A stretch of 64,000 bases of DNA from contig NZ_CP046175.1 in NCBI RefSeq assembly GCF_009708215.1, positions 3,410,001 to 3,474,000 on the forward strand. The letters run 5' to 3'. The position numbers and the translations under genes are program-made. The stretch is from Occultella kanbiaonis. GTDB lineage: Bacteria; Actinomycetota; Actinomycetes; Actinomycetales; Beutenbergiaceae. This document shows positions 50,920-54,147 of the stretch, in pieces (positions within the stretch are counted from its first letter, which is position 1; every line of letters starts with the position of its first letter). Under the pieces are notes generated by a model. The model was not told where the DNA came from, did not search any database, and saw only the letters and a program-made list of their open reading frames with translations.

Positions 50920-53889
50920 TCAGGCAGGAACGATGTTGACCAGCTTCGGTGCCCGCACGATCACCTTGCGGATACCGCGGCCGTCCAGCGCGCGCTGCAC
51001 GGCTGGGGCGGCCAGCGCCAGCTCCTGCAGCTCGTCCTCGCCGATCGACGGCGCTACCTCCAGCCGGTCCCGCACCTTGCCCTGCACCTGCACCACGCAG
51101 GTCACGGTCTCGGCGACCAGCAGCGCCTCGTCGGCCTCCGGGAACGCGTGGTAGGTCAGCGACTCGGTGTGGCCCAGCCGCTGCCACAGCTCCTCGGCGA
51201 TGTGCGGGGCCACGGGTGCGGTCATCAGCACCAGCGGCTCGATGGCCTCGCGGGCGACGTGCGCCTGCGAGGTCAGGTGGTTGTTCAGCACGATCAGCTT
51301 CGCGATGGCCGTGTTCGGGCGCATCGCGGACATCTCGGTGCGCACGTCCGCGATCGTCCTGGCCACCACGCGGCGGGTCTCGTCGTCGGCCGGGGCGTCG
51401 GTGACGGTCAGCTCTCCGGTCTCCTCATCGACCGCGTTGCGCCACAACCGCTGCAGGAACCGTTGCGCCCCGACGACCGCGCGGGTGTCCCACGGCCGGG
51501 ACAGGTCCAGCGGCCCCATGCTCATCTCGTACACCCGGAACGTGTCCGCGCCGTAGGCGGCGTACATCTCGTCCGGGGTGACCATGTTCTTCAGGGACTT
51601 GCCCATCTTGCCGTACTCACGGTTGACCACCTGGCCGTTCCAGGTCCAGATCGGGTCGCCGTCGGAGCCGACCTCCTCGGTGACCTCCTCGGCGGGCACG
51701 TGCACGCCGCGGGCGTCGGAGTAGGCGTACGCCTGGATGTAGCCCTGGTTGAACAGCTTGTGGAACGGCTCGACGCTCGAGATGTGGCCCAGGTCGAACA
51801 GCACCTTGTGCCAGAACCGTGCGTACAGCAGGTGCAGCACGGCGTGCTCGACGCCGCCGACGTACAGGTCGGCGCCCCCCGTGGTGGGCTTGCCGTCCGG
51901 GCCGGTGCGCGGCCCCATCCAGTACTTCTCGATCTCGGGGTCCACGGCCGCGGACGTGTTCGTCGGGTCCAGGTAGCGCAGCTCGTACCAGCACGAGCCT
52001 GCCCAGTTGGGCATCGTGTTCGTGTCCCGGCGGTAGACCTTCGGCCCGTCGCCCAGGTCCAGCTCGACGTTCACCCACTGCTCACCCCGGGCCAGCGGGG
52101 GCTCCGGGGAGGACTCGGCGTCGTCGTCGGCGTACGTGCGCGGCGAGAAGTCCGGGACCTCGGGCAGCTCGACGGGCAGCAGCTCGTCCGGCAGCGCGAT
52201 CACGCGGCCGTCGGAGTCGTAGACCACCGGGAACGGCTCGCCCCAGTACCGCTGCCGGGAGAACAGCCAGTCCCGCAGCCGGTAGGTGACCGTCGCGGCG
52301 CCCAGCCCCCTGCGCTCCAGCCAGGCGGTGATCGTTCGCTTGGCCTGCGCCACGTCCAGCCCGTTCAGGCTGACCTCGTCGTTCGCCGAGTTGATGATGG
52401 CACCGTCGCCCCCGTAGGCACCGCCCTCGAAGCCCGACGGCGGCGCTACCGTGTGCACGATCGGCAGCTGGTAGGTGGTGGCGAAGTCGTGGTCACGCGC
52501 GTCCCCGCCGGGCACGGCCATGATCGCGCCGGTGCCGTAGCCGATCAGCACGTAGTCCGCGATGAACACGGGCAGCCGGGCGGCGTTGACGGGGTTGATC
52601 GCGTACAGGCCGGTGAACACGCCGGACTTCTCGCGGCCCTCGGCCTGGCGCTCGATGTCCGTCTTCGCCGCGGCCGCGGCGCGATAGGCGGCGACGGCGT
52701 CGGCGGGGGCCGTGTGCCCGCCGGTCCACGCGGAGTGGGTCCCCTCGGGCCACTCGGCGGGCACGCCCGCGTCCAGCAGCGGGTGCTCGGGGGCCAGCAC
52801 CATGAACGTCGCACCGAACAGGGTGTCCGGGCGGGTCGTGAACACCTCGATCTCGGCAGCGGCGCCATCGGCACCCACGGAACTGGCGCCGTCGGCACCC
52901 GCGGAAGGGCCGCCGTCGCCCCCCGCGACCGCGAAGGTGACCCGGGCGCCCTCGGAGCGCCCGATCCAGTTCCGCTGCATGGTCTTGACCTTCTCCGGCC
53001 AGTCCAGCCGGTCCAGGTCGTCCACCAGCCGGTCGCCGTAGGCGGTGATCCGCATCATCCACTGGCGCAGGTTGCGCTTGAAGACCGGGAAGTTGCCGCG
53101 CTCGGAGCGGCCCTCCGCGGTGACCTCCTCGTTGGCCAGCACCGTACCCAGACCGGGGCACCAGTTCACCGGCACGTCCGCCACGTAGGCGAGGCGGAAG
53201 GTGCCCAGCACGTCCTCACGCTCGGCCGCGCTCAGGTCCGCCCAGTCCTGCCCGTCCGGAACGGCCCGCTCCCCCGCCGCGAAGGCGGCCTCCAGCTCGG
53301 CGATCGGGCGCGCGGCACCCACGCCGCCGCCGGGCCGTGGCGCGTCGTGGTCGTACCAGGAGTTGAAGATCTGCAGGAAGATCCACTGCGTCCAGCGCAC
53401 GTAGCCGGCGTCGGTGGTGGCGAACGAGCGGCGCTCGTCGTGCGCCAGGCCCATCCGCAGCAGCTGGCGGCGCATCGTGTCGATGTTCTCGTCGGTGGTG
53501 ATGCGCGGGTGCTGGCCGGTCTGCACGGCGAACTGCTCGGCCGGCAGCCCGAACGCGTCGTAGGACAGCGCGTGCAGCACGTTCGCCCCGGTCATCCGCT
53601 TGAACCGGCCGACCACGTCCGTGGCGATGTAACCCAGCGGATGTCCCACGTGCAGGCCCTTGCCCGAGGGGTAGGGGAACATGTCCAGCACGTAGAACTT
53701 CTCGGCCGGGACCTCACCGCCGCCGGCCAGGTCACCGGTCGGGTTCGGCGCGTGGAACGTGCCCTCGGCGGCCCACCGCTCCTGCCAGGACAGTTCTATG
53801 TGAGCCGCCAGGTCCGCGGTGTAGCGGTGGGCCGGGACGGCGACGTCGGTGCCGGCCGTATCGGTGACGGCGGCGTGAGGCTCAGACAT
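50920..53889 (-). CDS. leuS: Leucine--tRNA ligase
   Basis: A 989-residue class I aminoacyl-tRNA synthetase that charges tRNA(Leu) and edits mischarged tRNA. The HIGH signature is in [17 protein letters not shown] and the KMSKS signature is the variant [14 protein letters not shown]. The CP1 editing domain (about 280-480) includes [23 protein letters not shown], and the anticodon-binding and C-terminal domains follow. The Ala/Gly/Ser repeat insertion around [20 protein letters not shown] in the CP1 region is unusual and low complexity. ATG at 53889 has AAGGAAA upstream. A 12-codon Leu-rich leader peptide and two hairpins precede it, suggesting attenuation by leucyl-tRNA supply. Confidence 0.97.
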
Positions 53890-53950
53890 GTGCGTTTCCT
53901 TGGGCAGGGCCACCGGCAGGCGGCGGCGTCACGGAGGCTGACATGAGAAC

Positions 53951-54025
53951 GACCCCCCGCAGAACGTGGGAGGTCGGCCGCGCTGACGCGACGCCGCGTG
54001 GGCGTCCGCTGCAGATCAGCGCGGC
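53951..54025 (-). promoter_or_regulatory. Attenuator hairpins of the leuS leader
   Basis: On the minus strand, reading towards leuS, a first hairpin pairs GCCGCGCTGA (54025-54016) with TCAGCGCGGC (53986-53977). Its loop can form an inner ACGCC/GGCGT stem. A second hairpin pairs GACCTCCC (53975-53968) with GGGGGGTC (53958-53951) and is followed by GTTCTC, a weak U-rich tail. The second resembles an attenuator terminator 61 bases before leuS. The 5' arm of the first overlaps the end of the leader peptide gene, so ribosome position could decide which structure forms. The antiterminator pairing was not worked out. Confidence 0.65.
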
Positions 54026-54054
54026 TGGGTAAGCAACAGCTCCGTGGAGAACAT
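54016..54054 (-). CDS. leuS leader peptide (12 residues, three consecutive Leu codons)
   Basis: ATG at 54054 opens MFSTELLLTQPR and stops at 54016. The Leu codons are CTG, TTG and CTT in a row; TTG and CTT are rare in this GC-rich genome, which makes stalling more likely when leucyl-tRNA is short. The stop codon lies in the first hairpin of the leader, the classic attenuation layout. TAGGCT six bases upstream could be a -10 box for a leaderless start, and GGTAGG could alternatively be a weak ribosome-binding site. Confidence 0.7.
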   Translation of the reverse strand: MFSTELLLTQPR

Positions 54055-54147
54055 CCCATCAGCCTACCGCAGCCCGATCTGCGCGGTGCCTGTGGCCGGC
54101 GGCACGGCAGACCTTGGTTCGCCTGGGCACGGACCTGCCGCACCGGG

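Follow-up and report, generated by a model that had tools for sequence, protein, structure and literature searches.

Upstream of leuS in Occultella kanbiaonis lies what is, with high likelihood, a leucine-responsive, ribosome-mediated transcription attenuator, through which this leucyl-tRNA synthetase gene would very probably be upregulated when charged leucine-tRNA runs short. The element sits within the window analyzed here (64,000 nt of contig NZ_CP046175.1, positions 3,410,001 to 3,474,000) and comprises a short leader frame with three consecutive Leu codons, a hairpin that we call P, and an adjoining terminator-like hairpin, T. We regard the attenuation reading as well supported because the element is conserved, its helices covary, and the leader codons of its relatives match the gene that follows. 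These observations imply that leucine-controlled attenuation of leuS, reported in Streptomyces, is widespread, and that a common scaffold serves several branched-chain amino acid genes with its codons exchanged.

The target gene encodes a leucyl-tRNA synthetase of 989 aa (50920–53889, minus strand; TIGR00396, 859.7 bits summed in frame), the only leuS found in a search of the whole 5.65-Mb genome, with a Shine-Dalgarno-like AAGGAA at 53896–53901 and its closest named counterpart in Occultella glacieicola (91%), a match that places the window in Occultella or a closely allied genus (Ruaniaceae, Micrococcales). The first-pass annotation, made from the sequence of the window, had described ahead of leuS a 12-codon frame with three consecutive Leu codons, two of them rare, and we confirm this frame on the minus strand at 54054–54016 (ATG TTC TCC ACG GAG CTG TTG CTT ACC CAG CCG CGC TGA); it encodes MFSTELLLTQPR before its stop codon, and relatives encode M...LL(L)(T/S)xPR-stop. 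The regulatory codons CTG, TTG and CTT occupy 54031–54039 (minus strand, beginning at 54039, 54036 and 54033), and CTT begins 8 nt ahead of hairpin P. TTG and CTT are indeed rare here, since the 167 Leu codons of three well-framed window genes (leuS, a lacI-type gene and a sulfatase gene) comprise 119 CTG, 43 CTC, 5 TTG and 0 CTT. Hairpin P, predicted by folding (53977–54025, minus strand), has an outer stem that pairs 54025–54015 with 53987–53977 and an inner stem-loop between; the stop codon TGA (54018–54016, minus strand) lies within its 5′ arm, as first described, though the outer stem is 11 bp long and not 10. Hairpin T (53950–53976, minus strand), which folding and covariation both delineate, follows P with 0 unpaired bases between them and leads into the weak U-tract UUCUC (DNA TTCTC, 53945–53949, minus strand), so that the terminator-like hairpin with a weak U-tail noted earlier is also borne out; in many relatives the U runs after T are longer, and in most the tract is strong. 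Two marks of a ribosome-mediated attenuator are present: a short leader ORF whose codons call for the amino acid that the regulated gene serves, and a terminator hairpin ahead of the structural gene.

Generic searches did not return the element. An E. coli-style terminator scan of the stretch gave no site, a sigma-70 consensus scan of it gave no promoter site, and at the gathering cut-off no relevant Rfam family was matched in the window, neither T-box nor any other curated family; when Rfam models were run against the leader stretch itself, nothing came near threshold. The plus-strand fold was discarded as irrelevant because leuS lies on the minus strand. RNA folding of the region does yield P and T, as the first pass proposed, but its energy is unremarkable, with z = -2.09 and 7 of 200 shuffles folding equally well. 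Folding energy by itself is weak evidence for the element, and homology is strong evidence.

Leaders of the same pattern, followed by P and T, stand ahead of leuS in Georgenia, Jiangella, Phytoactinopolyspora, Haloactinopolyspora and Streptomyces, as well as in Micromonospora, Hamadaea, Actinophytocola and most genera of the window organism's family; alignment of the regions upstream of leuS therefore shows the Leu run and hairpins to be conserved among relatives, on which the first-pass claim had been staked. A covariance model of 24 leaders (R1) matched 29 of 93 leuS loci, every time just upstream of leuS, with no other match in those loci stronger than E = 0.05. To avoid circularity, a second model (R2) was restricted to 13 sequences, Streptomyces and others, all outside the family of the window organism; R2 matches the window element with E = 4e-15 and, over the whole 5.65-Mb genome, nothing besides. 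Across 95 leuS leaders, 94.5% of P and T cells are paired, against 43–55% in slid controls, and two-sided compensatory changes occur in 16 of the 18 modelled pairs (9 of 10 in P, 7 of 8 in T), with 202 two-sided cells compared to 43 in shuffles. This alignment leans towards structure because it was fitted to a covariance model; a smaller MAFFT alignment that was not model-fitted gives the same picture, with 28 two-sided cells against 8. A chance GC-rich structure beside an unrelated short frame, which the modest folding z would suit, is refuted by this conservation and covariation across families and by the score from a model built without the organism's own family, and we assign it a negligible probability.

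The scaffold is not confined to leuS. R1 had matches in 25 of 396 genomes drawn from the phylum and in 95 of 248 drawn from the order, where 43 of 86 sampled genera carry a match, mostly ahead of leuS. All 123 distinct R1 matches classified by downstream gene lie upstream of one of four genes (leuS 87, cimA 27, ilvB 7, leuA 2; none elsewhere), the leuS matches dividing into 46 at long-form and 41 at short-form leuS. Leader codons track the gene: LLL for leuS and leuA; LII, VII or III for cimA; and runs of Val, Leu and Ile for ilvB. Because the sequence part of R1 contains Leu codons, the search held no bias towards the Ile and Val leaders that it found.

Two further members occur elsewhere in the window genome, outside the window. 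The citramalate synthase gene cimA is preceded by a leader MMPTSVLIID and stop, with P and T (3737777–3737867, minus strand), of a type represented by 27 cimA leaders across the order; a literature search for a cimA leader or attenuator found nothing pertinent, subscription journals lying outside its coverage. The ilvB gene has a leader MFSSAIVVVLTGRAHATV and stop, again with P and T (3750994–3751107, minus strand), which is the one match of the 123 accepted at E = 0.016. In other classes of the phylum the scaffold stands before leuA, with leaders MSQNLLLT-stop and MTSTLTLLLLS-stop (L139 and L140). The distribution between the two forms of leuS also varies: in five family members the short form is the only leuS found (L184, L191, L194, L195 and L199, in genomes G016, G019, G020, G014 and G018, respectively) and has the attenuator within about 70 nt upstream, and congeners with a long-form leuS (L101, L102, L113) have lost it at that gene. 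Two genomes carry both forms, G004 with the attenuator at each (L105, L182) and G021 (L101, L223) with the attenuator at the short form only.

The leader mRNA is probably leaderless. A candidate -10 hexamer, TAGGCT, lies at 54061–54066 on the minus strand, 6 nt ahead of the leader start codon, and its position (54066–54061) leads us to predict that transcription starts at 54054 on the minus strand, the first base of the leader ATG, and not downstream of it, in keeping with the reported leaderless S. lividans orthologue leuL2 (PMC8079986). A TAnnnT box 6 or 7 nt ahead of the leader start is present in 31 of the 31 leuS leaders listed, and almost every additional leuS leader that has upstream sequence shows it too. 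Where the attenuator is missing, leuS itself seems to be leaderless, because a -10 box usually lies 6–7 nt ahead of its own start codon: TAnnnT occurs 5–8 nt before the leuS start at 38 of 64 loci without an attenuator (L025, L027, L030–L035 and L041–L047 among them) versus 1 of 33 loci with one. The attenuator and a predicted leaderless leuS are thus mutually exclusive apart from the locus of Myceligenerans pegani (L036, 1170–1279), which has an internal leaderless-type promoter at its leuS start in addition to the attenuator and is perhaps an intermediate in attenuator loss.

The spacing of the parts is strikingly constant. The last Leu codon begins 8 nt before the first P pair in 87 of 93 leuS leaders, and this distance stays fixed while the end of the stop codon ranges from +1 to +40 relative to P. 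Among 94 leuS leaders, the linker between P and T measures 0, 1 or 2 nt in 28, 47 and 19 sequences, respectively, and the apical part of P varies from 4 to 57 nt. A model-free stem search likewise places the codon-to-stem distance at 7–9 nt in 72 of 78 leuS, 33 of 37 short-form leuS, 21 of 26 cimA and 2 of 2 leuA leaders, the ilvB leaders being more variable (3, 5 or 8 nt). Of 94 leuS leaders, 81 have CTT as this last Leu codon, in contrast to the 0 of 167 in the window genes. Takyar and co-workers are reported to have located, in 2005, the point at which the ribosome unwinds mRNA at about +11, counting from the first base in the P site. If the last Leu codon occupied the A site, the first pair of P would on this scale fall at +12, immediately outside the ribosome, and melting of P would begin with any further step.

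The textbook 1:2 / 2:3 / 3:4 layout is nevertheless not seen, as no antiterminator that competes for the bases of T was found, and it is in this respect that the ribosome-mediated attenuation first proposed from the sequence needs revision, attenuation as such being well supported by conservation, covariation and codon-gene matching. In classical attenuation, a separate antiterminator would share bases with T and become free upon ribosome stalling. Such a scheme was predicted in 2005 for the leuS genes of S. avermitilis and S. coelicolor, with both an antiterminator and a terminator hairpin upstream (Seliverstov 2005, PMC1262725). In partition functions computed for 12–16 ribosome positions, however, T is predicted to form with a mean probability of 0.88–0.95 at every position, and because this is at least 0.88 throughout, thermodynamics alone gives no switch. 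Before its 3′ arm exists, the 5′ arm of T is ~0.07–0.1 paired with P intact and up to ~0.36 with P opened; the rise on opening P, from 0.07 to ~0.35, speaks for a classical competitor, but one induced by stalling would have the wrong sign, since the T arm is free while P is intact. Mutual information over the leuS leaders reveals no helix beyond P and T and no covariation of P arms with T arms, and growth of P would take a T base in 5 of 94 leaders and none in the other 89. With no antiterminator sharing bases with T supported by any of these three approaches, we consider the classical scheme unlikely here.

Hairpin P itself is the likely antiterminator. The transcript would begin with the leader start codon itself, and a ribosome could load straight onto the RNA 5′ end. 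When leucyl-tRNA is scarce, this ribosome would stall at the leader Leu codons, and with CTT in its A site P should remain intact, because it begins 8 nt downstream, about at the mRNA entry of the ribosome; P would then block T, and leuS would be read through. When leucyl-tRNA is plentiful, the ribosome would reach the stop codon inside P and melt it, allowing T to fold and transcription to end. Since P would survive only during a Leu stall, and leuS is needed when charged leucyl-tRNA is low, an intact P should mean read-through, a sign of regulation that we assume from physiology. That P could antiterminate with no shared bases we infer from geometry: P and T adjoin but have no base in common, and most simply P would prevent the arms of T from joining at their base within the RNA exit channel. 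We found no pertinent literature on a hairpin that sterically excludes an adjoining terminator, and the exact P/T switch is offered as a plausible but tentative model. More broadly, the leuS, cimA, ilvB and leuA leaders may possibly constitute one actinobacterial attenuator family, apparently not in Rfam, in which the ribosome would act as a ruler: the last regulatory codon and the hairpin that follows it would be 8 nt apart, and this hairpin would remain paired throughout the stall and antiterminate by abutting the terminator, with no shared bases; we advance this with some doubt. The distances of 8 nt between codon and hairpin and 0–2 nt between hairpin and terminator provide a testable mechanism for attenuators without a visible antiterminator.

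In known attenuators, 1:2 hairpins form before the terminator. P, too, forms ahead of the transcription of T, and its main role could be to make RNA polymerase pause and so keep ribosome and transcription in step, leaving T as the sole switch under kinetic control; the dominance of T stability over expression in C. glutamicum ilvBNC mutants (PMC11857589) would agree with this. We nonetheless judge such a role unlikely to be the main one, as it leaves unexplained both the P-T linker of 0–2 nt in 94 of 94 sequences and the Leu-P distance that stays fixed despite a moving stop codon.

In the E. coli trp attenuator, the first arm contains the regulatory codons, and pairing 2:3 is in competition with 3:4. 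The window element resembles systems of this type in that leader codons would report charged tRNA and a terminator precedes the gene, and differs in that its codons are placed 8 nt ahead of P, with neither a 2:3 pairing nor an antiterminator sharing terminator bases found. The actinobacterial leuA LEU element forms a pseudoknot or base stem that involves the Shine-Dalgarno box, and it lacks a terminator (PMC1262725), whereas the window has a terminator-like hairpin and a base stem is unsupported there. Translational control of this kind, with the leader and Leu codon run pairing to the spacer before the leuS ribosome-binding site, would account for matched leader-spacer duplexes being slightly stronger than mismatched ones (p = 0.006 at 25 loci; p = 0.011 among 46 representatives), but the effect is small, has a median rank of 0.42 and is uncontrolled for the genome composition that matched pairs share, and we think this explanation very improbable. 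A more general objection comes from S. coelicolor ilvB, where substituting codons is reported to have made no difference (as cited in PMC1262725), a result that counts against the attenuation reading.

The nearest experimental support for P as antiterminator is the C. glutamicum ilvBNC leader (ilvB-II motif), whose hairpins have been identified by mutational analysis as terminator, antiterminator and anti-antiterminator (PMC11857589). It shares with the leuS leaders a leader rich in branched-chain amino acids, a start codon at about the transcription start and a CUU control codon (PMC11857589, PMC10272879), and its antiterminator and terminator bases adjoin (PMC11857589). The hairpins there share a GCC trinucleotide and are accompanied by a third hairpin; the leuS leaders lack such a shared boundary trinucleotide, P and T having no base in common in 89 of 94.

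An attenuator of leuS in an actinobacterium is itself already known in kind (PMC1262725, PMC8079986). What is new here is the gene-matched codons over 123 leaders, the 8-nt codon-to-P spacing and the 0–2-nt abutment of P and T. The 2005 prediction, compared by description (PMC1262725), likewise places ahead of leuS a Leu-codon leader ORF and hairpins, one of them a terminator, and differs in its antiterminator hairpin, none that shares T bases being found here. In S. lividans TK24, leuL2 precedes leuS with the leader MRAVRLLLSEPR, is leaderless by RNA-seq, and is followed by a hairpin and a U stretch (2021, PMC8079986); neither a P-T geometry nor a wider family is described in that paper. Relative to leuL2, the window U-tract is weaker and the window leader starts MFSTE. 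Both nonetheless have three Leu codons in an -LLL.xPR-stop pattern, and the full leuL2-type arrangement of a leaderless LLL leader, a hairpin and a U stretch recurs in the window, with the leaderless start predicted there from the -10 spacing only.
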